A stretch of 64,000 nt of DNA from IMG/VR virus record IMGVR_UViG_3300034198_030914, positions 1 through 64,000 of that record; one strand, written 5' to 3'. Of this stretch, positions 7,985 to 63,744 are shown piece by piece. A program made the translations under genes and the position numbers. The first letter of the stretch is position 1. Every line of letters begins with the position of its first letter. Under the pieces are notes generated by a model. The model searched no databases and was not told the DNA's origin. It was given only the letters and a program-made list of their open reading frames with translations. This DNA comes from a virus.

Positions 7985-9508
7985 TTAAAGAACTCTTACA
8001 TACATAGGACAAACAAACTGACTGTTTTCTATTGCCAGTGCGTAATACATCATTAATTGGCACATTCTATCACTTGCTTGTACAAAATAATAAAGATTTT
8101 TTGCTATTAGTAAAGCTTGTAATTTTGAAATCAATCTTGTCTTGGTTCCAAGTTTATCGGTTTTGATTTCTTTACTTTTATCACCTAATTTCCCAATGGC
8201 ATCATTCAAAATTTCGACTTGTGTATTTAATTCATCCTCTGATAAGCTTTCAAAGTATTTATGGTTTGGAATTGGGGGTATTTCGATTTTATATTCTTGC
8301 GATACTTTACTGAAAATAGAATTAATTTCTATAAGAGAAATTTTTCCATGTCTGGAAGTCTTACCTAAAACTTCACCCTGTACGTCCTGTATCTTTTCTT
8401 TACCACCAAAAGTTCTAACTACCATCATAATATCTCTATTTTCAGATTCTAAGTCTGATTTCTGATTCATTAGTATATTAACACCCAACGAATTAGTTGC
8501 TTTGAATGAAGTTCTAACTTTCAAGAAAGAATATCTCGGTCTTTCTGTAACCTTATTTATTAGTAGATTCGCAGACTCAAGGTTTCTTACTTTTTTAAGT
8601 GATACACTCACTATGTCTCTACGCATAAAATTTTCGTCAACTAATTTATTCAATTCTTCAATTGTTTGACAACCCTCTATATCACTAAGTAATTCTTGGA
8701 TTTTTATAGAATTGACAATCCACATATCACTTGGATTCCATTTAGCTGGTTGCATACCCCTTGCCAATTCTACAAATTTTTTTTTAATTGTAGACATAAT
8801 CCCACCAGTGAAACCTACTTGGTGAAATACATACCTCTTTCTATCATCTAAAATAGATTTTTTCCCACCCTTAGAAGTATAAATTTCTCTATATTCGTAT
8901 AGTGCATTTGCAGTTGTCACAAAGGTAGTGCTCCAATTTTTTCTATAATTTTCAAGAATTTCAGGACTCAAATATACTTCTGTCTTGATTATATCTAAAA
9001 GTTCTTCTCTTATATATCCAAGAATATCAAAGAGTAAATCATAATCTTTATCTGTGATGTTTCTTCTTAAATCTTGTCTCAGTGCACAATACAAACATTG
9101 TATTGATTCTACAATTCTTGTTTCTTTACTTCCCAGCGAACTACCACCACTTGAGCCAAACTCAGCCGTTTTTTCTATATCATTGAGTTTATAGACTTTA
9201 TCATCTGTGTTAAAGATTTCTTTGTATCTATTACCTCTGAATAAAAAATCTTTAGCTTTCTCAATGTCATAACTCTTTTTACTACCATCAGTAATACCAT
9301 TAATTATGTCTTCTGGATTATTTATGGCTGATTTTTTTGGTTTACTATCTTTTGGTAAAAAATTGAGATGTCCATCGACATTTTCTGAATCTTCTACTTG
9401 TTGCTTTAACTTTCTAACAAGCACATCACCTCTCAAGCCACCTTCTTCGCTTGATTTTTCTAACTCACCTAAGTTTAGGTTTGCTTCGTGAAATTTTAAT
9501 ATTCTCAT
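7985..9508 (-). CDS. Conserved phage protein, possible PD-(D/E)XK-type nuclease
   Basis: A 507-residue protein. After a hydrophilic N-terminus comes a Gly/Ser stretch (EFGSSGGSSLGSKETRI near 116-132) and ESIQCLYCALRQ. The middle holds KWNPSDMWIVNS (near 250) and, about 40 residues later, VSVSLKKV. An acidic residue followed by a (S/E)xK triplet is the layout of restriction-like folds, so a nuclease is a fair guess and no more. The N-terminus MRILKFHEANLNLGELE is a divergent member of the tag family seen at 19750-19929 and 47766-51814. It has its own promoter-like box at 9513-9525. Confidence 0.6.
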   Translation of the reverse strand: MRILKFHEANLNLGELEKSSEEGGLRGDVLVRKLKQQVEDSENVDGHLNFLPKDSKPKKSAINNPEDIINGITDGSKKSYDIEKAKDFLFRGNRYKEIFNTDDKVYKLNDIEKTAEFGSSGGSSLGSKETRIVESIQCLYCALRQDLRRNITDKDYDLLFDILGYIREELLDIIKTEVYLSPEILENYRKNWSTTFVTTANALYEYREIYTSKGGKKSILDDRKRYVFHQVGFTGGIMSTIKKKFVELARGMQPAKWNPSDMWIVNSIKIQELLSDIEGCQTIEELNKLVDENFMRRDIVSVSLKKVRNLESANLLINKVTERPRYSFLKVRTSFKATNSLGVNILMNQKSDLESENRDIMMVVRTFGGKEKIQDVQGEVLGKTSRHGKISLIEINSIFSKVSQEYKIEIPPIPNHKYFESLSEDELNTQVEILNDAIGKLGDKSKEIKTDKLGTKTRLISKLQALLIAKNLYYFVQASDRMCQLMMYYALAIENSQFVCPMYVRVL

Positions 9509-9512
9509 AAAT

Positions 9513-9525
9513 CTATATATTAAAA
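9513..9525 (-). promoter_or_regulatory. Putative phage promoter box
   Basis: Coding-strand sequence TTTTAATATATAG, 4 bases upstream of the ATG at 9508; the same core as at 2951 and 36441. The very short leader suggests a start codon close to the 5' end of the message if this box is used. Confidence 0.4.
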
Positions 9526-9528
9526 TTT

Positions 9529-9933
9529 CTATTCATCAATTTTATTTATCTTTAGGTCTCTTATTAAGGAAACTATAGGTAGAATCAAGTCGAATTCTTG
9601 GATTTCAAAATCAATTATATTAAATTTTAAATTTATATGACTATTTGTTTGAATCTCGGAAAACTCATTATATAGCAAGAGTTTTACTTTAGCGATTTTT
9701 CTTACCTTTATTTCTTCATCTGTGGCAGTATCAACTACAATATATTCGATATCACCAAAATTATAGTCTTCTAAATAATCAGCATTTGTTTTTATATAAA
9801 ATCTTTTTTTGGAATTCTCCTCATCAATTTTAATTTCAAAAGAGTCTACAAATAATTCTTTGTATTCGAGATCATTATAAATCAGTGTTACTCTGTCTTT
9901 ATAGAGTTTCGAAAAGCGATGTTGTATGGGCAT
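9529..9933 (-). CDS. Hypothetical protein coupled to topoisomerase
   Basis: A 134-residue protein starting at the ATG at 9933 (MPIQHRFSKLYKDRVTLIY), which overlaps the topoisomerase stop as TAATG. Beta-rich throughout with alternating hydrophobics (RVTLIYNDLEYKELFVDSF, IEYIVVDTATDEEI, LDLILPIVSLIRD-like end). Not recognised. Coupling to the topoisomerase gene suggests a DNA-metabolism or structural accessory role, but nothing in the sequence shows it. Confidence 0.6.
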   Translation of the reverse strand: MPIQHRFSKLYKDRVTLIYNDLEYKELFVDSFEIKIDEENSKKRFYIKTNADYLEDYNFGDIEYIVVDTATDEEIKVRKIAKVKLLLYNEFSEIQTNSHINLKFNIIDFEIQEFDLILPIVSLIRDLKINKIDE

Positions 9934-11777
9934 TATTTTAACATTTCTTTTTTTCTTAGTTCGGAGTCTTTTCCGAACCATATGTTCAAACTATCTTTTG
10001 AAATATCATCAGATGTAATTCTTGTTAAGATAGGATTTTGTATAATTTCTGAGTACTCATCATCAACAAGAGCTGCTAAACCCTTTTTATATTCTATTTC
10101 GTATACTTTTGGATCTATTTTTTGTAACCATTTTTCATATTCTTCTTGTGAGTAAAAAGAGGTTTTCTTTTTAGTTTTAGTGTTCTTAACCACGACTATT
10201 GGTGTTTCAGCCTTGAATATGATTGGGTTATCAAATAATTCAGGCCAGAACTTATAAAAAAAATTCAAAAGAAGTCCAACGATAGATGATCCATCAAAAT
10301 CAGCATCACAGAAAAATAAAATTCTACCGAATCTCATATTTGTTAAGTTAGCCTTCTGTCCTAATTTTAAACCTAAAGCAGCCATCAAGTTGATTACTTC
10401 ATTATTTTGTGTTAGCTTTTGAGTTGTTATTTCTGCAGCATTTATAAACTTACCTCTAAGTGAGAAAGCGCCTTGTGTATTAGTATCTCTATACTTTCTA
10501 AAGCTAGCGGCTGCTGAATCACCCTCAAATATACTAAGACTACACTTCCATCTTTCTTTAGCTTTGGCATCAATGAGTTTCTCAACCTTAATTTTACTCA
10601 AGTTTTTATTCAATTCTCTTGTTAATTTAGACTCATCAGCACTCTTTTTCTTCTGTATCCAATCTAGAATAGAATCAACTATTTCTGATTTCAGAATCCA
10701 CTTAATTAATTTTTCCGATACTTCAAATGTGTGTCCAAAATCTTTAACCTCTGTAATTAGTTTTTCTTTAGTTTGTGAGGAAAAACTCGGATTAATAATT
10801 GTAGAATTGATATAGATTGAAATATGATTCTTTATTTCAGATGGTTTTATATCCACTTTGTGTTTCTTTTGGAAAAATTCTCTTATTTGCACTATAATTT
10901 GACTCATCACATAATCAACGTGTGTACCGCCATCCCAAGTTTCGGTTGAATTAGCAAAACTAATTTGTTGAAATCCATCACTTGAAGCGGCAATCGCAGC
11001 GCTCCAACTCCTATCACTGGTAGTTTCAAAATAGAAATCCGTTTTATAGAATTTTATATAATCTTGAAAAGATTTTATTTTTATTTCTTCATCATTGAAG
11101 AAAACTTGTAGACTTGGATTACACCCTGCAATATCAATAACTCTTTTTTGAATCAATTGAAAATGAGACTCATCTAATCCTGTCATGCCGAATCTCTCAT
11201 AGTCTGGAAGATAAGTAATCTGTGTATGATTAGTCTTAGATTTTTTAACTACAGGTTTAGTTCTCTCCATCATATTGTTTGAAAAAGTTTGAAGAAAACT
11301 TTTTTTACCATCACAGGTTGAGACTGTAAATTTTTTTGAAAAAATATTTACGCAAACCGATCCTATACCATTTGTTCCACTCCAAGTTCTATCTTCAGTT
11401 TCATCGAAATTCGATCCCGATTTTGTCTCCGAGAATAACATTTCCGGAACCCACATATTCTGCTCTTTATGTTCTGCGACAACTATACCACCGTTATCCC
11501 AGACAGATATTTCATTTTCGTTTATTGAAACCTTAATTGTATTTAATTGAGAACCTTCTCTTTTTGATTCATCTACACTATTCATCAGAATTTCGTCAAA
11601 AAGCTTTAAAAAACCATTTACATGGGTAACTTCTCTGAAAATCATTTTATTATCTTCTACCAACCATTTATATCCGATTGTTGGCTTGGTTGATGAAATA
11701 TACATACCAGGACGAAGTAGTATATGTTCAATGTCTGTTAACTTTTTGTATTTTTCTTCTATGCTTTTATCTTTCAT
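9933..11777 (-). CDS. Type II DNA topoisomerase, ATPase/TOPRIM subunit (T4 gp39-like)
   Basis: A 614-residue GyrB/ParE-type subunit. GHKL ATPase motifs are visible: DEILMNSVDE (61-70), WDNGGI (93-98) and GTNGIGS (134-140). The TOPRIM centre has EGDSAAASF (418-426) and DADFDG (491-496), the metal-binding acidic residues. T4 splits this subunit between genes 39 and 60; here it is one uninterrupted ORF including the TOPRIM half. Its partner is transcribed divergently at 11908. Phage type II topoisomerases support replication and DNA-delay phenotypes. Assignment is very secure. Confidence 0.95.
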   Translation of the reverse strand: MKDKSIEEKYKKLTDIEHILLRPGMYISSTKPTIGYKWLVEDNKMIFREVTHVNGFLKLFDEILMNSVDESKREGSQLNTIKVSINENEISVWDNGGIVVAEHKEQNMWVPEMLFSETKSGSNFDETEDRTWSGTNGIGSVCVNIFSKKFTVSTCDGKKSFLQTFSNNMMERTKPVVKKSKTNHTQITYLPDYERFGMTGLDESHFQLIQKRVIDIAGCNPSLQVFFNDEEIKIKSFQDYIKFYKTDFYFETTSDRSWSAAIAASSDGFQQISFANSTETWDGGTHVDYVMSQIIVQIREFFQKKHKVDIKPSEIKNHISIYINSTIINPSFSSQTKEKLITEVKDFGHTFEVSEKLIKWILKSEIVDSILDWIQKKKSADESKLTRELNKNLSKIKVEKLIDAKAKERWKCSLSIFEGDSAAASFRKYRDTNTQGAFSLRGKFINAAEITTQKLTQNNEVINLMAALGLKLGQKANLTNMRFGRILFFCDADFDGSSIVGLLLNFFYKFWPELFDNPIIFKAETPIVVVKNTKTKKKTSFYSQEEYEKWLQKIDPKVYEIEYKKGLAALVDDEYSEIIQNPILTRITSDDISKDSLNIWFGKDSELRKKEMLK

Positions 11778-11907
11778 CTGTGTCTAAAATTATATTCATT
11801 TTTTTATCTATATATCTTTTTTGACTTTTCATAAGAAAGGTTTAGAAAAATAATCTAAAACAAGAATAAGTCTTATCCATATATAATTTCAAAGGATTGA
11901 AAAAAAA

Positions 11908-13248
11908 ATGTCACAGAAATCAATTACAGACTTTTTATCGAATGAATACAAAGATTTTGCTATGTACACGATTGAGAATCGTGCGATTCCCTCATTAGTT
12001 GATGGGTTCAAACCTGTACAAAGAAAAATAATACACATATCCAATCAACTTTGGAAGAATAGTGATGAAAAAACAAAAAAAGTTTTTCAATTAGCGGGAT
12101 TAGTAGCAGATAAAGCATTCTATCATCACGGAAACGCTAGTCTTGAAAATGCCATTATCACAATGGCTCAGAGTTTCAAAAACAATATGCCTCTTTTAGA
12201 GGAAATCGGACAATTCGGATCACTTCGTTCACCAGAGCCCGGCGCTGCCAGATACATTGGTACAAAACTAAATAGTAATTTCAGACATTTATATAAAGAC
12301 TTTGAACTACTTAATTTCAAAGAAGAGGAAGGAGAGATAATTGAGCCAAATTACTTTTTACCAATCATCCCAACCGTCTTGATAAATGGTTCTTCTGGAA
12401 TTGCAGTTGGTTTTTCTTCAAATATTTTAAATAGAAATCCAAGAGAAGTAGTTGACGCTTGTTTACTTGCTCTATCTGGTAGGAAAATATCTGATGTTAA
12501 ACCATTCAATAATTTTTTCAAAGGTGACTATATTCAAGATGAAAATAATCCCAAAAAATGGATTATCAGAGGTAGAGTTCAAATAGTTAATACCACTACG
12601 GTAAAGATAACAGAATTGCCACCTTCTATGACATTTGAAAAGTATGAAGCTATTTTAGATTCATTACTTGATAGTAAGACTATTGTTTCATATGATGATA
12701 ATTGCAAAGATAATATTGACTATACAATTAAATTCACCAGAGAGTCACTTTCTACTCTTGATGAGGAAAAATTAATTAAGTTATTGAAACTTGAAGAATC
12801 ATCTACTGAAATTTTTACGACATTAGATGAAAGTGGAAGCCTTAAGATTTTCGAAAGCTCATCAGAAATTATTTCTTATTTTGTTAATTTCAGATTAGAA
12901 TATTATGTTAAGAGAAAAGAATATATTCTAAATAAACTCAATAGTGAATTAGGAGTATTATCTAATAAAGGTAAATTTATTCGAGCAATACTTGAAGGTA
13001 AAATTGAAATTAAAAATGTCACAAAGACTAAGATTGTTTCAGAGATTGAATCTTTAGGAATAGACAAAATTGATGATAGTTACGATTATCTTTTAAGAAT
13101 GCCTATTTATTCACTAACAAAAGAGTTATATGATAAACTCAAAGAAGATTATAAGAATAAAAAGTTAGAAATTGAGAGTGTTCAGAAAACTGAATCTCGA
13201 GATATGTATAAATCAGATTTGGTTGAACTAAAGAAAAAACTAAAATAA
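11908..13248 (+). CDS. Type II DNA topoisomerase, DNA-cleaving subunit (T4 gp52-like)
   Basis: A 446-residue GyrA/ParC-type protein. RAIPSLVDGFKPVQRKI (25-41) is the conserved entry into the winged-helix domain, FYHHGNASLENAI lies at 71-83, and AARYIGTK (113-120) carries the catalytic tyrosine at 116. SSGIAVGFSSNI follows near 165. It stops after the coiled-coil tower/C-gate with no GyrA-type beta-pinwheel, as in T4 gp52 (441 residues), so no negative-supercoiling activity is expected. Divergent from the ATPase subunit with about 130 bases between. Confidence 0.95.
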   Translation: MSQKSITDFLSNEYKDFAMYTIENRAIPSLVDGFKPVQRKIIHISNQLWKNSDEKTKKVFQLAGLVADKAFYHHGNASLENAIITMAQSFKNNMPLLEEIGQFGSLRSPEPGAARYIGTKLNSNFRHLYKDFELLNFKEEEGEIIEPNYFLPIIPTVLINGSSGIAVGFSSNILNRNPREVVDACLLALSGRKISDVKPFNNFFKGDYIQDENNPKKWIIRGRVQIVNTTTVKITELPPSMTFEKYEAILDSLLDSKTIVSYDDNCKDNIDYTIKFTRESLSTLDEEKLIKLLKLEESSTEIFTTLDESGSLKIFESSSEIISYFVNFRLEYYVKRKEYILNKLNSELGVLSNKGKFIRAILEGKIEIKNVTKTKIVSEIESLGIDKIDDSYDYLLRMPIYSLTKELYDKLKEDYKNKKLEIESVQKTESRDMYKSDLVELKKKLK

Positions 13249-13249
13249 G

Positions 13250-13280
13250 TTTTTTTATTCAAAATTTTTTAGTATATTTG
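13250..13280 (+). promoter_or_regulatory. Bacteroidota-type promoter upstream of rhomboid gene
   Basis: TTTT at 13250, 19 bases, then TATATTTG at 13273-13280, close to the TTTG-N19/21-TAnnTTTG consensus of the Bacteroidota housekeeping sigma factor. The rhomboid ATG is 17 bases downstream. The -7 box is perfect; the -33 box has one mismatch. Confidence 0.55.
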
Positions 13281-13296
13281 TAAAGTAATTCCTCAC

Positions 13297-13848
13297 ATGA
13301 TATTCAAATTAATTAGAAATTATAAACAGACTATAATACTAGTCTTGTTAAATATAATTATTTTTTGCTTTTCAAATCAAGTTGATTTGAATTATTTTTA
13401 CTATTTTTCAGCTTGGAAATTAGATTCGGGTCTTTTTTCGCCACATCAACTGCTAACTTATCAGTTTCTACACGCAAATGTTGACCACCTCTATTTCAAT
13501 ATGTGTTTTTTAATTTATTTTGCCACCAGCATAGAGAAAAATTATAAATATCCAATTCTTCTATATAATTTTTTAATATTTGGTGTTTTCGCTGGAATTA
13601 CGCATTTATTATTATCACCAAGTCAATTGCCGCTAATAGGGGCATCTGGTTCAGTAATGGGAATCTCAGTATTAGCTGCACTATTATCTAGATCATGGTT
13701 TATAAAGTTTTTTGTTTTTGCCTTTGTGTTGTCTGATATTTTCTGTATAATATTATCCAATGCTGATAACATTGCCTATTGGGCGCATATAGGGGGGTCT
13801 CTGTCAGCTTTACTTACTTACTTATTAAATAATCAAGTGAAAAAATAA
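13297..13848 (+). CDS. Rhomboid-family intramembrane serine protease
   Basis: A 183-residue polytopic membrane protein. TM1 is at about 12-26. The L1/TM2 region YQFLHANVDHLYFNM (55-69) matches the rhomboid HxxxH-N motif, GASGSVMG (115-122) holds the catalytic Ser117, and YWAHIGG (161-167) holds the catalytic His164. This is a minimal six-TM rhomboid with the full Ser-His dyad, so it should be active. Rhomboids cleave transmembrane helices of substrate proteins. A phage copy might process host envelope proteins or modulate lysis; that is inference. It has its own host-type promoter, suggesting early expression. Confidence 0.88.
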   Translation: MIFKLIRNYKQTIILVLLNIIIFCFSNQVDLNYFYYFSAWKLDSGLFSPHQLLTYQFLHANVDHLYFNMCFLIYFATSIEKNYKYPILLYNFLIFGVFAGITHLLLSPSQLPLIGASGSVMGISVLAALLSRSWFIKFFVFAFVLSDIFCIILSNADNIAYWAHIGGSLSALLTYLLNNQVKK

Positions 13849-13853
13849 AATTT

Positions 13854-14192
13854 ATGAATTTTCTAAAAAATGATGATAAATCTAAGGTGTGTTTTTCTCA
13901 TATCGATACACAAATATCCTCCTACATTAAGAATAATTGGGATATAGACGAAGTAATTTTAGAACTTAGTAATAAAATTTCTAAATTCCAAAATTTATTA
14001 CAAAACTTATCTGAAAATGAGCCAAGATTTAAATTTCTAACGGCACATAATTTGGTTTGCAAAAAAAGAATCTCTGATTTCGAATTAATATTAAGAATTA
14101 GTAAAAAAGATAATTTTCAAGAATACAACTTAGAAAAGTTATTTAATTTGATAAAGTTCAGAGATAAATTTTCAAGACAACTGCTTGGCTGA
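13854..14192 (+). CDS. Hypothetical protein
   Basis: A 112-residue helical, Asn/Lys/Leu-rich protein starting 6 bases after the rhomboid stop, so almost certainly co-transcribed with it. No signal peptide, membrane segment or recognisable motif (a single HNLVCKKR segment in the middle). Its last 21 bases overlap the end of the convergent gene at 14172. Function unknown. Confidence 0.6.
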   Translation: MNFLKNDDKSKVCFSHIDTQISSYIKNNWDIDEVILELSNKISKFQNLLQNLSENEPRFKFLTAHNLVCKKRISDFELILRISKKDNFQEYNLEKLFNLIKFRDKFSRQLLG

Positions 14193-15317
14193 TATCAATA
14201 TTTTTCTCACCCTTGGTATGAAAATAGTTTCATATGAAGGTTCATTGAAATTTATTTTTTTCTCAGTTTCTAATATCTGTTCAATTGCTTCAACACTAAC
14301 GTATCTGTCCCATTTTGACTTCATGTCTAATTCCGTTTTTTCTAATCTATTTGATAGTTCCAATAAATTTATTTCTTCATCGTTCAAGTCTGATTCCTTC
14401 TTTGTTAAGTCAACCTGCAATTTCTTTAGCTCTGAGTCTTTTTGTGTAAGCATCTTTTCTTGACTCAGTAAGAAGAATTCTTTTGTTTTTACTTCATCTA
14501 AGTCTTTTGCTAATTGTTTTTCTTTTAATTCTAACTTTTTTGCAAGAGTCTCAAGATTTATTTCCTTATATGCTAAATCATCAATGTCTATATCTTTAAA
14601 CTGAGATTCTTTCAGTTTAAATTCCTTTTCTCTTTTATTTAGTTCATCAATCTTTATATTTAAATCGTTTTGTTCCTGCTGAATTTTTCTTTCTTTGATT
14701 TCGAGCATTTCTAATTTAGTCTCCTTTTCAAATAGTTCTTTTTCTTTCGTCAATAACTCTAAATGTTTTTTCTGTAAGTCTTCTAAATCCTTATTCAACT
14801 TCATTTCAGTGAAGTTATTGGATTCTATACCCTTTAGTTTTTCTGAGTAATTTTTTTCTTTTCTCAAAAATTCTAATTCTTTGTCGGACATTTTTTGTTG
14901 TTCCTCTAATAATTGTTTTTCTAGAAGATCAAGTCTTTTTGATTTTGCATCCAATTGACTCTCTTTGAATTTAATTTCTTCTTCTGAAATGGTATTAATT
15001 ATTTCCTGCTTCTGCTCAACTTTTGGCTGATTTGCAATAAACATATCCTCGATGAAAGGTGCAATTTTTTTAGCAAGAATAGCAGGTTGCGGTATTTTAT
15101 TCGTCTTGATAAACGAATGTAATTCTTCTTTCCAATCAACTGATTTAAAAAAAGAAGTATTGTTTTCTATGATTTCTTTTTCAATTTTAATGGAATCACT
15201 GGAACCTTTTGGTGTATAAGTATAGTTTTCTAAAATAGTATTAGTTTTTAAAACTATAATTTTTTTATCTTCAGTGATAAATTGATAGTCTTGTATTACT
15301 TTGTGTTTTATATTCAT
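14172..15317 (-). CDS. Long coiled-coil protein
   Basis: A 381-residue protein. Residues 1-95 are mixed (KHKVIQDYQFITEDKKIIVLK at the start). Residues about 105-335 are an almost continuous Lys/Glu/Leu coiled coil with heptad spacing (for example ELNKREKEFKLKESQF), and a short globular tail ends the protein. It may be a structural spacer, scaffold-like or cytoskeletal protein; I cannot choose. It has its own AT-box promoter-like sequence (TTTTTAATATATAA) about 35 bases upstream and is convergent with 13854-14192. Confidence 0.65.
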   Translation of the reverse strand: MNIKHKVIQDYQFITEDKKIIVLKTNTILENYTYTPKGSSDSIKIEKEIIENNTSFFKSVDWKEELHSFIKTNKIPQPAILAKKIAPFIEDMFIANQPKVEQKQEIINTISEEEIKFKESQLDAKSKRLDLLEKQLLEEQQKMSDKELEFLRKEKNYSEKLKGIESNNFTEMKLNKDLEDLQKKHLELLTKEKELFEKETKLEMLEIKERKIQQEQNDLNIKIDELNKREKEFKLKESQFKDIDIDDLAYKEINLETLAKKLELKEKQLAKDLDEVKTKEFFLLSQEKMLTQKDSELKKLQVDLTKKESDLNDEEINLLELSNRLEKTELDMKSKWDRYVSVEAIEQILETEKKINFNEPSYETIFIPRVRKILISAKQLS

Positions 15318-15364
15318 AATTTTCAGGAAATTTCAAGTTTTTTCATAATTATATATTAAAAACA

Positions 15365-15395
15365 TTTGATTCTATCAAAAAAATACTTATATTTA
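15365..15395 (+). promoter_or_regulatory. Bacteroidota-type promoter
   Basis: TTTG at 15365-15368, 19 bases, then TATATTTA at 15388-15395, matching TTTG-N19-TAnnTTTG with one mismatch. It is placed 21 bases upstream of the ATG at 15417, and supports that start rather than the longer open frame from 15366. Confidence 0.55.
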
Positions 15396-15416
15396 CATAA
15401 TAATTCAATTAAAAAA

Positions 15417-16568
15417 ATGGAACAAATCAAAAAAACAGGTGAATTCAAACCAAAAGAAAAATTTATAGAATTTATTGGTGCTAAAGGTAATATCAATTTT
15501 ATTTCTACTGAAGCGCTTATTTCCGGTAAATTACTATCAGGACTTGGATTTGAGAATCAAACATTTAAACTAAAAATTTATGAGGATGGTACAGTCGATT
15601 TTTCCGACACAGAAAATCAAACCAACTCAAAAGAACAAAGAGAGAGACTACTTGATGTTATTCTTGAAAAAACAATCACCCCCTTTAGAAAAAGAATGGT
15701 TGTAAAAGAATTAGAATTTACTTCAATATCGGAAGTAAGTGGTAAAAAAATATCACTATATCTAGCAGTTGAATATACAACACCAATAGAAAAACTATCT
15801 TCAATTTTTGATGAAGAAGTTGAAGTTTCCCAAAGTCAAATGAATAAACTCGATGAGCTTATGTCACTCTTTGATGATATAGTCGATGAGGGTATAGACG
15901 AATATGAATCAGATGAAGTTGTAGAGTCTAAAGAAGAAGATAATTCAAATGCACTCAACCACAATGTCTTCTTAGAAGATCAGTTCAGTAAATTGAAAGA
16001 AGAGAAAATTAAAAAATTAAAAAGTGATTTAGAAAATTCGAAGTCTAACCTATTGAAATATGGAAGGGATAAAAAATTTGCAGAATCTAAAGTCGAAGAA
16101 TTTACTTCTGAAATTAGACTTTTAGAATCTAGATTGGACACTCTACAGCCAATCGCACCAGAAAATGGATATTACTTCAATGTTTCCCAAAGACTAAATG
16201 AAGAGATAGTTTTAGAAAAAGAAATCTATGAATTGATTAAATCAAAAGTAGATAAAGTAAAAGGAATCAATGGTGAAGCATTTATGAAACTATTTGAAGA
16301 GGGTCAGTTTCAAATTAGATTAGCTCAAAAAATAGATGGTGAATTCGTTGAAGTTACCGATTTCGAAAATTTACCTACTGAACTTTTAGATTGTATGAGT
16401 GATTTAAATCTAAAGATAGATGAAGGTAAACTCTTCTATATTGGTGAGATGATTTGGGCGGTATTAGTCAACAAGTTTATTAAACTCGGATTTATTCAAG
16501 ATTCTGAATGGGACAAGTTTTGTAATTCAAATTCCTATTCTGCAAAATTAGATGAAAGTATACTTTAA
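15417..16568 (+). CDS. Hypothetical acidic protein with central coiled coil
   Basis: A 383-residue protein from the ATG at 15417 (MEQIKKTGEFKPKEKFIEF). The longer open frame from 15366 would include the promoter and is rejected. N-terminal 130 residues are beta-rich (KLKIYEDGTVDFSDTEN), an acidic linker follows (DEGIDEYESDEVVESKEED), then a coiled coil (about 195-250) and a mixed C-terminal domain. Not recognised. Its host-type promoter suggests early expression; 16608 follows with its own AT box. Confidence 0.6.
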   Translation: MEQIKKTGEFKPKEKFIEFIGAKGNINFISTEALISGKLLSGLGFENQTFKLKIYEDGTVDFSDTENQTNSKEQRERLLDVILEKTITPFRKRMVVKELEFTSISEVSGKKISLYLAVEYTTPIEKLSSIFDEEVEVSQSQMNKLDELMSLFDDIVDEGIDEYESDEVVESKEEDNSNALNHNVFLEDQFSKLKEEKIKKLKSDLENSKSNLLKYGRDKKFAESKVEEFTSEIRLLESRLDTLQPIAPENGYYFNVSQRLNEEIVLEKEIYELIKSKVDKVKGINGEAFMKLFEEGQFQIRLAQKIDGEFVEVTDFENLPTELLDCMSDLNLKIDEGKLFYIGEMIWAVLVNKFIKLGFIQDSEWDKFCNSNSYSAKLDESIL

Positions 16569-16607
16569 AAAATTTTATATATAGATAATAAAAATAATAT
16601 TTAGAGT

Positions 16608-17219
16608 ATGTTCAATCAAACTATCAAATCCAATATAAATAAAATCGACTATGATTTAAAAGAATTATTTTCAAATGTAACAATTAACGAAAGAACCCAT
16701 TTCAATAAATATTTCTTTGAGATTAAATCTGAAGGTATATTCCAAAATCTACTGGAGTCAAATTCACATAGAATGGCTAAGTCACTAGTCATAATCGAGA
16801 AAAAAGATTTAGAGTCAGACTTAATATCTTGGAAATATAGTGTTAACCCAACAGATAATAAATCACACTTTATTGAAAGAATATCAAATATTGAAAACAT
16901 CGCTGAGGATATTTATAATACTATTGCGAAAAAACAGATGGATAGAGAATATCTACAGGGATTACCAGAAGTTGAATTAGAAGAAGAAATAGTCGATGTA
17001 GAAGGTTCGTTCGAAGAAGATATTATTGAGGTTGTAGAAAAATTTGATTTACTGATTAGTGATATTCGAATTACAAGAAATATATCTAAGAATATAATTA
17101 TACAACATCAAGGGATTGAAACATCCGAGATGTTTAAATTGGAATCCAAACTTCTTAAATTAGAAAGAGTTAATTATGTTTCATTCGATAACGACTTAAT
17201 AAAAATAAATTATAATTAA
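16608..17219 (+). CDS. Hypothetical protein
   Basis: A 203-residue protein with no motif I recognise. N-terminal helical segment (SNINKIDYDLKELFSNVTI), an acidic stretch (EVELEEEIVDVEGSFEEDI) and a mixed C-terminus. Preceded by TTTTATATATAG about 30 bases upstream and followed directly by the perfect palindromic terminator at 17222. Probably a single-gene transcript or the end of the 15417 transcript. Confidence 0.6.
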   Translation: MFNQTIKSNINKIDYDLKELFSNVTINERTHFNKYFFEIKSEGIFQNLLESNSHRMAKSLVIIEKKDLESDLISWKYSVNPTDNKSHFIERISNIENIAEDIYNTIAKKQMDREYLQGLPEVELEEEIVDVEGSFEEDIIEVVEKFDLLISDIRITRNISKNIIIQHQGIETSEMFKLESKLLKLERVNYVSFDNDLIKINYN

Positions 17220-17221
17220 AT

Positions 17222-17253
17222 AAAAACCTCTCTTGATATCAAGAGAGGTTTTT
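17222..17253. terminator. Perfectly palindromic bidirectional terminator
   Basis: A5-CCTCTCTTGAT and its exact complement ending in T5 make a 32-base perfect palindrome between two convergent genes. It can fold on either transcript and provides a T-tract for both. Confidence 0.85.
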
Positions 17254-17255
17254 AT

Positions 17256-17555
17256 TTAAGAATTAATTTGTTGAGTGTTACTTACAGGTTCTGGAGTTGG
17301 TTCTACTACATTTTCAGGTTTTTTTGCTAATAGTTTACGTGCACCAAGAAGTGTAGCACCAATACCAACAAAAACTATCGACTGTGTGATAATATCTATA
17401 CCTTTAGATATAAACATTTTATCAATACATCCAAGTAAAAAACAAAGTGTACCTACCATGCAGATTACTACACCAGCAAAACCTGAACCTGATGTTTTAC
17501 CATCACTATTTGCGAAAAGCTCAGGCCAACTAAATTTTGACATATTTGGTTTCAT
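17256..17555 (-). CDS. Small membrane protein with two hydrophobic segments
   Basis: A 99-residue protein from the ATG at 17555 (a TTG at 17561 would add two residues). Soluble N-terminus with KFSWPELFANSDGKTSGSGF, TM1 about 25-45 (GVVICMVGTLCFLLG), TM2 about 55-75 (SIVFVGIGATLLGARK) and a Pro-rich tail. Small two-TM proteins of this kind occur in many phages; a holin is possible but no lysis gene is adjacent, so I leave the function open. It ends at the 17222 terminator. Confidence 0.65.
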   Translation of the reverse strand: MKPNMSKFSWPELFANSDGKTSGSGFAGVVICMVGTLCFLLGCIDKMFISKGIDIITQSIVFVGIGATLLGARKLLAKKPENVVEPTPEPVSNTQQINS

Positions 17556-17611
17556 AAACAAATAATTATTTTTTTTATATATTATTATGAAAAAGTGTAC
17601 TAATTCAAAAA

Positions 17612-18079
17612 ATGCTATCTAACCTTAAGAATCTATTATTTTCCAATGAAGAACATTATTTATTCATAGAACATAATCTCTACAAGAGATGGTGGCCATT
17701 AATTAAAATTTTGGTTTTTTTTAATCCCTTTTATAAAACCTGTTGCTTTTACAGACAAAAATATAAATTTTATAAAAATGTTGTGGTTGTCGGTGTTAAA
17801 AAAATCGATAAAAAAATAAGAAGAAGAACGAAGGGGTTTTCTAAATCTTTTGTAGACAAGAATATAAATTCAAAATGTATTTATTGTGAATGTAAATTAA
17901 ATCACGAAAATGCCTCAGCGGACCACATCGTTCCAATATCTAAGGGGGGAAATAATAATCAATTGAATTTAATCGTGGTGTGTAAAAAATGTAATAATGA
18001 AAGGGGAAATTTGGATTTTCTTACATATCTAAGACTTAAGAATCCAAACTTCAAAAATGAGAAATGTCCATTCGTTTAA
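17612..18079 (+). CDS. Freestanding HNH endonuclease
   Basis: A 155-residue protein. The C-terminal half is a classic HNH domain: CIYCECKLNHEN (zinc Cys pair) near 91-102, SADHIVPISKGG near 104-115 (DH catalytic pair), NLIVVCKKCNNERG near 121-134 (second Cys pair and Asn). The N-terminal half is basic and aromatic, probably DNA-binding. Such genes are mobile homing-type elements in T4-like phages. It overlaps the primase end by 4 bases on the opposite strand, suggesting insertion right at the gene boundary. Confidence 0.85.
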   Translation: MLSNLKNLLFSNEEHYLFIEHNLYKRWWPLIKILVFFNPFYKTCCFYRQKYKFYKNVVVVGVKKIDKKIRRRTKGFSKSFVDKNINSKCIYCECKLNHENASADHIVPISKGGNNNQLNLIVVCKKCNNERGNLDFLTYLRLKNPNFKNEKCPFV

Positions 18080-43400: not shown

Positions 43401-44525
43401 TTAATCAATTTTGAAATATATTCTTAAAGATTCTTGTGAATTTTCTTTCGATTTTGATATATATTTACTACTACCAGAAGTCTTAACTATACCTAAGGAA
43501 ACAAAAAGCTTGGTGAGTTCTATCATATCTTTATTCAATAATATCAATCCATTCACCTTACATAACTCTTGAATTGTTTTATTTGATGGTAATCTGTCGT
43601 TTATTTTAGTCTCAGAACTAAATATCACATCTAATACTATGTTATAGTTTATCCATTTTTGGAAATTTGGATCCTTCTCAATCTTCTTTCTATAATCATC
43701 ATAACTTCTGTAAATATAGTATTGGTTAAAATATACACCACTAAGAATTAAAATTTCTATTAATGTCGATATTATAACAAACAAAAATGAGTTGGTGCTA
43801 TTTTCCCTTTTCTCATCCTTTACTTTGGAGTCTATGTTGTTCTTGTAATCTTCAATCTCTACTATTGATCCATCTTTGATTGCCTTTTTTGAGTCTTCTA
43901 ATTTGGTAATTTCTAATTTAATTTCAGATTTTTCTTGTTTTAAATCTTTTACACGGTTTCTTTGTTGATAACTCATAGGTTCGGAAGATTCAATATCAGT
44001 TTGTTCCTTATCCTTCTCATTTATTTTTGATTTCAGAAGTGTTATTTCATCGTCAACTTTTGCCAAGTCATTATTCAACTTCAGTGTCAGACTATCTTCA
44101 TATTTTTTCAATGTTGTGTCTGCTTTTATTTCTATTTCCTCAGCCTTTGATGAGAACTCCTCTGCTCCCTTTAAGGATGAGTAAAATGAAAGTGATATCA
44201 AGAAAGTACTTGTTATAAGTAGAGGCAAAACATCTTTAGTGAAAAAGCTTTTTGTTTTAAGTTGATTTAAACTAAACTTGTCGAAGACTTCTCTCTTAAG
44301 TAATTCAAGTCCACCCAATAAAATTACAGAGGCAATAGAAACTAAAACCGGACTTTCGATGGCACTAGATAGGACTTTTGATACTAAGAAATAAGCAAGA
44401 AAAATTGAGGCAAACTGTCCAAAAATAGACAGGTAAAGCATCACCTGATTGATGTTCTTGTAATTTCTATTAAAATCTTGATTTTGAATGGTATTTTCTA
44501 ATTTTTTAAATTCGTCTAATTTCAT
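43401..44525 (-). CDS. Four-TM membrane protein with long coiled coil
   Basis: A 374-residue protein. TM segments at about 28-50, 58-77, 98-116 and 244-266. Between TM3 and TM4 lies a Lys/Glu-rich coiled coil of about 120 residues, which with TM pairing would place it outside or inside as one antiparallel arm. The C-terminal 105 residues (LPSNKTIQELCKVNGLILLN followed by LFVSLGIVKTSGSSKYIS) look like a winged-helix. It may be a membrane-anchored organiser or superinfection-exclusion protein; unproven. Overlaps the upstream gene by 20 bases. Confidence 0.65.
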   Translation of the reverse strand: MKLDEFKKLENTIQNQDFNRNYKNINQVMLYLSIFGQFASIFLAYFLVSKVLSSAIESPVLVSIASVILLGGLELLKREVFDKFSLNQLKTKSFFTKDVLPLLITSTFLISLSFYSSLKGAEEFSSKAEEIEIKADTTLKKYEDSLTLKLNNDLAKVDDEITLLKSKINEKDKEQTDIESSEPMSYQQRNRVKDLKQEKSEIKLEITKLEDSKKAIKDGSIVEIEDYKNNIDSKVKDEKRENSTNSFLFVIISTLIEILILSGVYFNQYYIYRSYDDYRKKIEKDPNFQKWINYNIVLDVIFSSETKINDRLPSNKTIQELCKVNGLILLNKDMIELTKLFVSLGIVKTSGSSKYISKSKENSQESLRIYFKID

Positions 44526-55697: not shown

Positions 55698-57347
55698 ATG
55701 ATTATAACAAAGGAATTAGAAATTAAAGTTCAATGTCCTACATTGAATTATTATAGAACTCTTAACTATGATGTATCAGTTGGTGATGTTATTAAGATAC
55801 CAATCGAACACTTAAAAAAATCCTCAAATTTGAGGGTTTTAGTTTCTTGTGATTCTTGTTTTATAGAAAAGGAATGTTTTTATAACGCGTATAATAAACA
55901 AGTTCAAAAATCCGATGATGGTAAATATAGGTGTATAAAGTGTTCAATTCCATATAAAAGTAATAAAAAATGGGGAGTAGATCACTATTCTAAAACTGAT
56001 GATTTTAAGAAAAAGTTTAAAGAAACGTGTGAGTCTAAATATGGTGGACATTTTAATAAATTAGATGACTTTAAGAAAAAAATAGTTAATACGAATGTTG
56101 ATAGATACGGGGTTAATTATCCAATTCAAAAAAAAGAAATAAGAGATAAAATGGAACAAAGTATGTTTCATTTGTATGGATCTACACATTCACTTCATAA
56201 CGAATTTTTAAGAAATAAATCATTAGAAAAAATGATTGAAAAATATGGTTCCGCTTATAGTATGCAAATTCCATCTATAAGAGATAAAATTATATCATCC
56301 TCAAAAATCACAAAAAAAAATATTTTCATAAATAAAAATCCGGACATAATAGAAATAGACTATGAGGAAGGGCTCTATATAGTTAAATGTGAGTCCTGTA
56401 AAAATAATTTTAAAATTACTGGGCATATGTATCATATGCGGAAAAAGTACAACACAACAATATGCACTATATGTAACAATGTTGGCAAATCCGGATCCGA
56501 ATTACAAGTCTATGAGTTCATAAAAGATAACTATAATAATGAAATTTTACAAAATAAAAGAAATATTGTGGATAATATTGAGTTAGATATTTATTTACCT
56601 GATATAAAAATAGCATTTGAATTCAATGGATTATATTGGCACTCTGAGCTGTATAAAGAGAAAAGATATCACCTTAATAAGACAAATATATGTAAAGAGA
56701 AAAATATTGAATTAATTCATATATGGGAAGATGATTGGATGTTCAAAAAGGATATAGTTAAATCAATTATACTAAATAAATTGAAAAAAACATCTAATAA
56801 AATATTTGCCAGAAATTGTAGAATTAAGGAAATATCTGATAATAAATTAATTAGAGAATTTTTAGAAACTAATCACATTCAAGGATTTGTTGGATCGAAA
56901 ATAAAAATTGGACTTTTTTATGAAGATGAATTAGTTAGTTTAATGACATTTGGTCAGTTAAGAATATCTCTTGGACAAAAGAGTGAAGAAGGAACATATG
57001 AATTACTTAGATTTTGTAATAAATTAAATACAACAGTTGTTGGTGGTGCTTCTAAGTTATTTAAGTATTTTTTAGATAAATATATTCCTAATAAAGTTAT
57101 TAGTTATAGTGATTATTCTAGATCTAATGGGAATATGTATTATAAACTTGGATTTAATTTAGAACATAACTCAGAACCAAATTACTTCTATATAATAGAT
57201 GGAATTAGAAGTCACAGATTCAATTTCAGAAAAGATAAGCTAGTTAGAGAAGGAGCTAATCCCGAAATGACAGAATTAGAAATAATGGCAAGTAAAAAAA
57301 TATATAGAATATTCGATTGTGGTACACAAAAATGGATTTTTTATTAA
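55698..57347 (+). CDS. Hef-like mobile endonuclease with KYG repeats and VSR-type domain
   Basis: A 549-residue protein. A Cys-finger segment (VSCDSCFIEKECF, YRCIKCSIPY) opens it. Residues about 90-200 hold five KWGV/KYGG/RYGV/LYGS/KYGS repeats. A second CESCKN...CTICN finger follows. The nuclease core GKSGSELQVYEFI, then ELDIYLPDIKIAFEFNGLYW (acidic-x-x-FEFNG with HSE), resembles VSR-like PD-(D/E)XK enzymes. The remaining 200 residues (RNCRIKEISDNKLIREFLE...) match the C-terminal region of phage Hef-type proteins as I know it. Intact; a parasite inserted after the baseplate wedge genes. Confidence 0.8.
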   Translation: MIITKELEIKVQCPTLNYYRTLNYDVSVGDVIKIPIEHLKKSSNLRVLVSCDSCFIEKECFYNAYNKQVQKSDDGKYRCIKCSIPYKSNKKWGVDHYSKTDDFKKKFKETCESKYGGHFNKLDDFKKKIVNTNVDRYGVNYPIQKKEIRDKMEQSMFHLYGSTHSLHNEFLRNKSLEKMIEKYGSAYSMQIPSIRDKIISSSKITKKNIFINKNPDIIEIDYEEGLYIVKCESCKNNFKITGHMYHMRKKYNTTICTICNNVGKSGSELQVYEFIKDNYNNEILQNKRNIVDNIELDIYLPDIKIAFEFNGLYWHSELYKEKRYHLNKTNICKEKNIELIHIWEDDWMFKKDIVKSIILNKLKKTSNKIFARNCRIKEISDNKLIREFLETNHIQGFVGSKIKIGLFYEDELVSLMTFGQLRISLGQKSEEGTYELLRFCNKLNTTVVGGASKLFKYFLDKYIPNKVISYSDYSRSNGNMYYKLGFNLEHNSEPNYFYIIDGIRSHRFNFRKDKLVREGANPEMTELEIMASKKIYRIFDCGTQKWIFY

Positions 57348-62607: not shown

Positions 62608-62779
62608 AAATAAAAAAGTAGAATTCAAAATAGAAGAACAATTATTGAAAGAATGGAAACAAATCTGTGATAAAAACGGATATGACATGTCTAAAAGATT
62701 GAGAATCTATATTCAAAAAGAAATAGAGTTAGATTCAAAAGGGGTGAATTTGGTAAATTTGATTGAGGAATCAATCTAA
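62597..62779 (+). CDS. Small ribbon-helix-helix-like protein
   Basis: A 60-residue protein (MINKNKKVEFKIEEQLLKEW at the start). KVEFKIEEQLLKEWKQIC, then GYDMSKRLRIYIQKEIEL, has the strand-helix-helix spacing of Arc/MetJ-like regulators, where a short basic strand contacts DNA. It overlaps the endonuclease end and may regulate it or be carried with it. Assignment is tentative. Confidence 0.5.
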   Translation: MINKNKKVEFKIEEQLLKEWKQICDKNGYDMSKRLRIYIQKEIELDSKGVNLVNLIEESI

Positions 62780-62793
62780 ATTTTAGATTGATT
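62769..62793. terminator. Hairpin between convergent genes
   Basis: AATCAATCTAAA / TTTAGATTGATT, a perfect 12-bp inverted repeat with one central base, across the stop codons of 62597-62779 and 62776-63744. AT-rich with only a short T-tract, so a weak bidirectional terminator at best. Confidence 0.55.
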
Positions 62794-63744
62794 TAAACTA
62801 TCGATTTGATAAACCCTATTAATCTCATGAATTGACTTCTTTTCTACTAGAGCTGATATTGATTTTGCTATTAACTTTGCACAACTAATTATTTTAATTC
62901 GGTTATTTAACTTAGATTTATCATAAACTGAATGTAATGTGTCAATGACGATTACCTCTTCTATTTTTGAGTTGTGTAGGTTTTCTAAAGCTTTACCACT
63001 TAATATACCATGGGTAGCAACACATCTTACGGATAGTGCGCCCTTTTCTAGTAGTAGTTCGCAGGCTTTTGACATAGTTCCTAAGGTATCAGCCATATCA
63101 TCAACTATTATCACATTCTTACCTTTTACTTCACCAACTAATTCCATTGAATGAATTTCATTTGGTTTGATTCTTCTTTTATTAATAAGTGCAAATGTTG
63201 CTTCTGGGAATGCCTTACAGAAGTCTGAAGCTCTTTTTACAGCACCTTGGTCTGGTGCCACTATACAAAGATTTACTAAATCGAGTGATTTTATATAATC
63301 AATTGATACTACATTTCCGTTTAAATGTATTACTGGAAAATTGTAAAAACCTTGAATAGAGGAGGAGTGTAGATCTATTGTGATTAATCTATTGACTCCG
63401 GCTTTTTCAAAAATATCGGCTAAGAGTTTCGAACCTATGGATGATCTAAGGTGGTCTGTTTTGTCTTGTCTAGAATATCCGGAGTAGGGTGAAACTAGGG
63501 TAAAGGATTTACAACCTGCTCTTTTGGCAGCATCTACAACTAGTAGTGTTTCCATTATGGAGTCAGATGAATCACTGCTATTGATAAAAAATACATCAAT
63601 ATCTCGTATTGACTCTTTGAAACAGGGTAGGATTTCTCCATCTGAGAATTTATCTATTTGTAAATTTCCAATAGTGAAATCTTCAAAGTTTTTGGAAATG
63701 TCAAGTGCTAAGTGTAGATAATTTGTCCCTGCGAATATTTTCAT
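62776..63744 (-). CDS. prs: Ribose-phosphate pyrophosphokinase (PRPP synthetase)
   Basis: A 322-residue protein of full length. FAGTNYLHLALDISKNF at the start, FSDGEI near 33-38, SPYSGYSRQDK (85-95, ATP flexible loop), TIDLHSSSIQGFY (122-134) and the PRPP loop VIIVDDMADTLGTM near 211-224 are all present. It makes PRPP from ribose 5-phosphate and ATP for nucleotide and NAD synthesis. Phages that carry prs often pair it with a nicotinamide phosphoribosyltransferase, which may lie beyond the window. The adjacent gene at 63747 is two bases upstream. Confidence 0.93.
   Translation of the reverse strand: MKIFAGTNYLHLALDISKNFEDFTIGNLQIDKFSDGEILPCFKESIRDIDVFFINSSDSSDSIMETLLVVDAAKRAGCKSFTLVSPYSGYSRQDKTDHLRSSIGSKLLADIFEKAGVNRLITIDLHSSSIQGFYNFPVIHLNGNVVSIDYIKSLDLVNLCIVAPDQGAVKRASDFCKAFPEATFALINKRRIKPNEIHSMELVGEVKGKNVIIVDDMADTLGTMSKACELLLEKGALSVRCVATHGILSGKALENLHNSKIEEVIVIDTLHSVYDKSKLNNRIKIISCAKLIAKSISALVEKKSIHEINRVYQIDSLNQSKI

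Follow-up and report, generated by a model that had tools for sequence, protein, structure and literature searches.

A predicted rhomboid intramembrane protease encoded behind topoisomerase II in a probable Mahaphage-class huge phage

Introduction

Rhomboids cleave single-pass membrane proteins with unstable helices on the periplasmic side of the inner membrane, whereas rhomboid pseudoproteases lose the catalytic dyad. The fold and the existence of phage rhomboids are already known, and the protein described here adds one more member to an established family. In phages, rhomboids have hitherto been passing annotations: one is listed among the moron genes of Stenotrophomonas phage DLP5 (PMC5834331), and gp93 of Stenotrophomonas phage DLP3 is named a rhomboid-family serine protease (PMC7326821). 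Both phages are siphoviruses of ~96 kb in which we saw no link to topoisomerase II, unlike the phage studied here, and their rhomboid, although likewise phage-encoded, is 26% identical to ours over 60% of the protein.

Much larger phages are also on record. Al-Shayeb et al. (2020) described complete genomes of 634, 636, 642, and 735 kb, placed the largest in the clade Mahaphage, and predicted that the five genomes of >634 kb replicate in Bacteroidetes (PMC7162821); in a term search, the word “rhomboid” was absent from its main text. Our searches found no literature joining rhomboids with jumbo or phage-encoded contexts (the huge-phage match was off-subject by title), and, judging from titles and abstracts, the matches for rhomboid and bacteriophage genome seem to concern other subjects. 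As no such paper was found, the topoisomerase-rhomboid arrangement of huge phages detailed below appears unreported in the literature searched. The statement in an initial annotation of this locus that rhomboids are rarely reported in phages is thus fair for that literature, but the gene is common within the huge-phage clade considered here.

Results and Discussion

A phage contig, probably from a huge phage

The DNA analyzed (hereafter “the window”) comprises positions 1 to 64,000 of a linear, 102,219-bp IMG/VR virus record (IMGVR_UViG_3300034198_030914). A second record, IMGVR_UViG_3300032268_001605 (139,250 bp), derives from the same phage, with 4 mismatches when the window and the two stretches following it were matched against it. 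The window encodes a T4 gp52-like topoisomerase II subunit (11908..13248, + strand; PF00521, 1.2e-93; phrog_551), the large topoisomerase II subunit on the opposite strand and divergent from it (9933..11777; phrog_543, 7.7e-181), and other phage genes including an exonuclease, baseplate hub and wedge, a helicase, a clamp loader, and a homing endonuclease. A search of 50,697 phage records placed the nearest relatives of the gp52-like subunit in LR745206.1 (69.5% identity, genome of 634,780 bp), LR756502.1 (66.8%, 642,428 bp), and LR756504.1 (54%, 636,363 bp), and the same three came first for the baseplate wedge (63, 63, and 39%, respectively). Together, the phage neighbor genes and these huge-phage relatives rule out a non-phage contig, an origin that had been named as fatal to the initial annotation. 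We infer from their sizes that the three genomes are the published Mahaphage genomes of PMC7162821, and that the window, with core genes closest to those of 634-642-kb genomes, is most likely a piece of a Mahaphage-class huge-phage genome with a Bacteroidota host.

Elsewhere in the window, a homing endonuclease-like gene (55698-57347) lies downstream of the baseplate wedge gene, and positions 62776-63744 encode a ribose-phosphate pyrophosphokinase-like protein with a weaker match to the nicotinamide phosphoribosyltransferase family, possibly a part of phage NAD+ metabolism. A tRNA search of the window found none.

An intact rhomboid active site and a predicted GlpG-like fold

Immediately behind the gp52-like gene, an open reading frame with an ATG start (13297..13848, + strand) encodes a 183-aa rhomboid-family intramembrane serine protease with six predicted membrane helices. 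Its match to the Pfam Rhomboid family (PF01694) covers the catalytic core (residues 50-174) and is far above chance (E-value 3.7e-20, 73 bits vs. a cut-off of 22.6), while the PHROG search returned a weak match to phrog_16931 (4.5e-4). The catalytic dyad proposed by the initial annotation is present in the sequence, with Ser117 in GASG and His164 in AHIGG, both at the positions claimed. The “HxxxH-N” region that it described is also conserved, but not with that spacing, which is actually H59-x4-H64-x3-N68 in the helix-2 region. We take S117, H164, H59, H64, and N68 to be the equivalents of S201, H254, H145, H150, and N154 of GlpG, respectively. Across 45 aligned rhomboids from phages and cells, H59, H64, N68, G115, S117, H164, and G167 are invariant, so that the serine and histidine, whose loss in close relatives had been the second concern, are kept in all relatives aligned. 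The GxSx serine, distal histidine, and helix-2 H..H..N of S54 rhomboids are therefore all found here.

By sequence, the match to solved structures is marginal (GlpG, E-value 0.74). An AlphaFold2 model built from the 45-sequence alignment (mean pLDDT 94, pTM 0.90) predicts the GlpG-like six-helix membrane fold of S54 rhomboids, and resembles Escherichia coli GlpG (5f5k_A) with a Z-score of 20.7 and an rmsd of 3.0 over 170 residues at 18% identity (Foldseek E-value 5e-6). Since iRhoms and derlin also fit this model (Z 13-17), and rhomboid pseudoproteases exist, the protein could conceivably be an inactive rhomboid-like membrane scaffold. We consider this highly improbable: the dyad and the oxyanion residues are among the few positions that are invariant both in the 45 sequences and in 18 topoisomerase-linked phage rhomboids (see below), and the dyad, which iRhoms and derlin have lost, is present and invariant, which rules out a pseudoprotease at the sequence level.

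The window protein shares with E. coli GlpG and bacterial S54 proteases the (predicted) six-helix fold, the Ser-His dyad and the helix-2 HxxxxHxxxN, but differs from GlpG in having no N-terminal cytoplasmic domain and in being encoded by a phage, beside topoisomerase II; against the GlpG equivalog model it scores only 22 bits (cut-off 250). The best-scoring NCBIfam model for this protein and two of its phage relatives is rhombosortase (TIGR03902, 35-52 bits), which it resembles as a small, core-only rhomboid; its own 35.2 bits are, however, below the cut-off of 84 for that family. Loop 4 is shorter than in its phage relatives (~12 alignment columns fewer than in LR745206) and the window copy forms a long branch in our 81-row tree, so its specificity or activity could differ from theirs.

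Genomic context and expression

The initial annotation also had a host-type promoter driving an early rhomboid gene. The TANNTTTG motif, a Bacteroidota -7-like motif, does match at 13273..13280 (+ strand), 16 nt 5' of the start codon. However, the match is no better than chance: the window holds 118 copies of the motif vs. 105 +/- 11 in shuffles, i.e., no enrichment, and 3 of 57 genes have one at most 70 nt upstream, where the rate over the whole window (~0.065 per 70 nt on one strand) predicts ~3.7. A dedicated or “early” promoter is thus unsupported, and we saw no sign of early expression. Only 48 nt separate the end of the topoisomerase gene from the start of the rhomboid gene, and the two are as likely to be transcribed jointly. 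An Rfam search of positions 9000-18000 detected no RNA element near the rhomboid gene. Directly downstream, a 112-aa protein (13854..14192, + strand) has relatives at 13 other rhomboid loci and at four rhomboid-less loci, at varying distance.

A conserved but dispensable gene behind topoisomerase II

The gp52-like subunit is the conserved upstream neighbor of the rhomboid. On the same strand as this subunit, the rhomboid lies 3.4 kb downstream in LR745206 and 0.9 kb downstream in LR756502; that of LR756504 is ~20 kb away from the topoisomerase. These three genes, two of them directly downstream of topoisomerase II, are 18-34% identical to the window copy at the protein level, and their records carry no annotation. 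LR756504 was the only positive in a rhomboid search of eight records, with none found in LR756500, LR756501 (735 kb), Lak-B5, pT24, SCTP-2, PAU, and MaF61.

To look more broadly, IMG/VR was scanned with the topoisomerase, which yielded 40 loci, 14 of them with a rhomboid downstream on the same strand (one being the twin of the window phage); adding L003, L004, L015, and L016 gives 44. Sixteen of these 44 loci, which are not independent because the 40 include near-copies of one phage (e.g., L028/L056, L035/L038, L033/L063), have a rhomboid 38-3493 bp behind the topoisomerase II subunit, always on the same strand. All 16 also have the large topoisomerase subunit nearby, and no rhomboid occurs at the 17 loci lacking a visible large subunit, some of which end close upstream. 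The other 28 loci have no rhomboid in the stretch covered, which includes at least 2 kb downstream in 26 of them. When whole records were searched for 16 rhomboid-less topoisomerase loci and for L025, a rhomboid scored above the cut-off in 1 of 17, that of L025. Three rhomboid queries recovered 22 distinct contigs, 20 of which have the topoisomerase subunit upstream, a count that favors the clade since the queries were mostly built from topoisomerase-linked rhomboids. The two exceptions, L025 and L171, are records without such a topoisomerase.

One of the 20 linked contigs (L163, the contig of L053) retains a rhomboid remnant only. This decayed, C-terminal piece (L053:14371-14484) keeps the last two helices in frame and occupies the syntenic place, immediately ahead of a phosphatase-like reading frame and 3 kb after the topoisomerase; the rhomboid gene can therefore be lost in place. 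This remnant and the 28 of 44 loci without a rhomboid indicate that the gene is not essential to the clade. As a separate observation, the topoisomerase II genes of several relatives occupy at least two reading frames with gaps (L033:4566-8393, L016:64-6119, L057:4888-7671, L059:8880-11149, and L062:338-3068), and look as if split by introns, inteins, or homing-endonuclease insertion.

Fast divergence under purifying selection

Evolutionarily, the 18 topoisomerase-linked rhomboids share a mean pairwise identity of 38%, compared with 75% among the topoisomerase subunits encoded at these loci. Only 11 of 170 columns are invariant among them, including H59, H64, N68, S117, and H164, and the chance of all five falling within these 11 is 4e-7 if columns are taken as independent. 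The ratio of non-synonymous to synonymous changes (NG86) is 0.11-0.29 in six pairs, values that are rough because dS reaches 0.8-1.7. The rhomboid protein thus changes several times faster than the topoisomerase, under a purifying constraint that covers the catalytic residues.

Strict co-inheritance with topoisomerase II received weak support, the rhomboid and topoisomerase distance matrices being only loosely correlated (Mantel rho 0.23, with 208 of 2000 permutations as high), so that lineages may have exchanged the rhomboid, or its fast divergence may have added noise. Recent acquisition from a host was rejected: identities to the closest cellular rhomboids lie mostly at 25-37% over the matched stretch (maximum 47%, over 80 residues). 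In a careful tree of 81 rows, the 21 rows labeled as huge phages require three changes, with LR756504, L025, and L171 falling elsewhere. A quick tree of 74 rows (the same set minus LR756504, five other phage-collection records, and one long bacterial branch) places the 18 topoisomerase-linked rhomboids on one side of a branch with a support of 94 (not starred). The window copy falls among the huge-phage rhomboids in these trees, with modest support and a long branch. A single origin of the huge-phage rhomboids is thus likely, and the rhomboid is apparently an old, fast-evolving protease, dispensable but selected. Some phage-collection hits are doubtful as phage genes: an Acinetobacter record has GlpG beside fepA, and two Salmonella records are bacterial by name.

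A probable role in host-envelope takeover

We propose, with a probability of roughly 0.6, that the window rhomboid is a catalytically competent S54 intramembrane protease of a Mahaphage-class phage, whose most likely role is the takeover of the host envelope. The protein would be inserted into the inner membrane of the host as a GlpG-like bundle of six helices. In this bundle, His164 would activate Ser117 while H64 and N68 would occupy the oxyanion site, and the enzyme would cut, close to the periplasmic face, proteins whose single transmembrane helix is unstable. During infection, host inner-membrane proteins (receptor-associated, quality-control, or defence) may in this way be cut or cleared. 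The retention of the gene at the same place with an intact active site in related giant phages suggests a use during infection. The superinfection exclusion, defence evasion, and lysis control evoked by the initial annotation are, at this stage, ideas only.

In a hydropathy survey of the 139 kb known of this phage, clear membrane proteins other than the rhomboid were few. A substrate is accordingly more likely to come from the host than from this part of the phage genome; phage substrates could be encoded in the rest of the genome, mostly unseen if it is as large as those of its relatives. It is conceivable that the rhomboid cuts a phage membrane protein (a holin, a spanin, or a tail-associated protein) at a set time, for lysis or in the virion, and some reading frames of the window do have predicted transmembrane segments, among them one of 374 aa (43401-44525) and one of 101 aa with two predicted membrane helices and no Pfam family (17256-17561, - strand), the latter being among the few further membrane proteins in the known 139 kb. 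We nevertheless hold this to be very unlikely, since the rhomboid sits among replication genes and not among lysis or tail genes, several relatives with the same core have no rhomboid, and no conserved single-pass membrane protein beside the rhomboid follows its presence and absence. More generally, no co-varying membrane substrate was found next to the rhomboid, and nearby families with transmembrane segments also occur at rhomboid-less loci.

All 14 control genomes (bacteria and archaea) encode a rhomboid of their own, and a phage copy should therefore add something, perhaps a different specificity, or activity once host synthesis has been shut down. This bears on the idea that the phage rhomboid, with no special target, simply removes orphan or misfolded inner-membrane proteins while the cell is remodeled. 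Such a function would be similar to that of Shigella GlpG and Rhom7, which cleave orphan subunits of respiratory complexes (PMC7232013), and a loose specificity would fit both the fast divergence and the easy loss of the gene. We nonetheless find it unlikely, as a redundant copy needs a reason, and as both the fixed position of the gene and its purifying selection point to a benefit specific to the phage.

The neighborhood of the rhomboid in relatives raises another alternative, in which the rhomboid, phage type IX secretion system (T9SS) proteins, and other envelope genes change the surface of the infected cell and exclude other phages, for example by processing or clearing host gliding or T9SS proteins that these need. 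In three relatives (L004:11746-16758, L040:12624-14834, and L043:15168-17864; Pfam), proteins that combine SprB repeats, PKD, and CHU_C and have a T9SS type B sorting domain begin 0.7-3.1 kb downstream from where the rhomboid starts. L048 and L049 have counterparts at 0.7 kb, assigned by homology alone, and L003 encodes a small CHU_C protein 1.1 kb downstream of the rhomboid; overall, CHU_C was matched in 5 of 11 records tested. These proteins are apparently cargo for the host's own T9SS. Other neighbors include a NIF/dullard/FCP1-like HAD phosphatase, which shares 4 nt with the end of the rhomboid gene in L003 (L003:10549-11109) and whose family occurs in five more rhomboid loci, and a subtilase 0.8 kb behind the rhomboid start in L036 (with a weak Por_Secre_tail match, 19.6 bits vs. 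a cut-off of 27).

However, surface proteins are adjacent to the rhomboid at only 6 of 18 rhomboid loci, they also occur at two rhomboid-less loci (L034 and L064, the latter at L064:14046-17663), and a CHU_C/SprB search of both records of the window phage (139 kb known) found none. In addition, the cargo of type B T9SS sorting is not known to carry a C-terminal membrane helix that a rhomboid could cut. A rhomboid dedicated to surface display thus seems rather unlikely, and it is doubtful that the rhomboid, the dullard/FCP1-like phosphatase, and the T9SS type B SprB-like proteins form an island behind topoisomerase II that would rebuild the cell exterior and shut out rival phages. With surface proteins occurring without a rhomboid and the window phage having none, we favor a general envelope-takeover protease.

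Conclusions

In a clade to which some of the largest phages on record belong, the huge-phage rhomboid is thus an old, selected, yet dispensable gene, with a fixed place and an unbroken active site. Such a gene provides an experimental entry point to the handling of the host membrane by giant phages, and the huge-phage rhomboids offer a source of sequences far from those studied so far.
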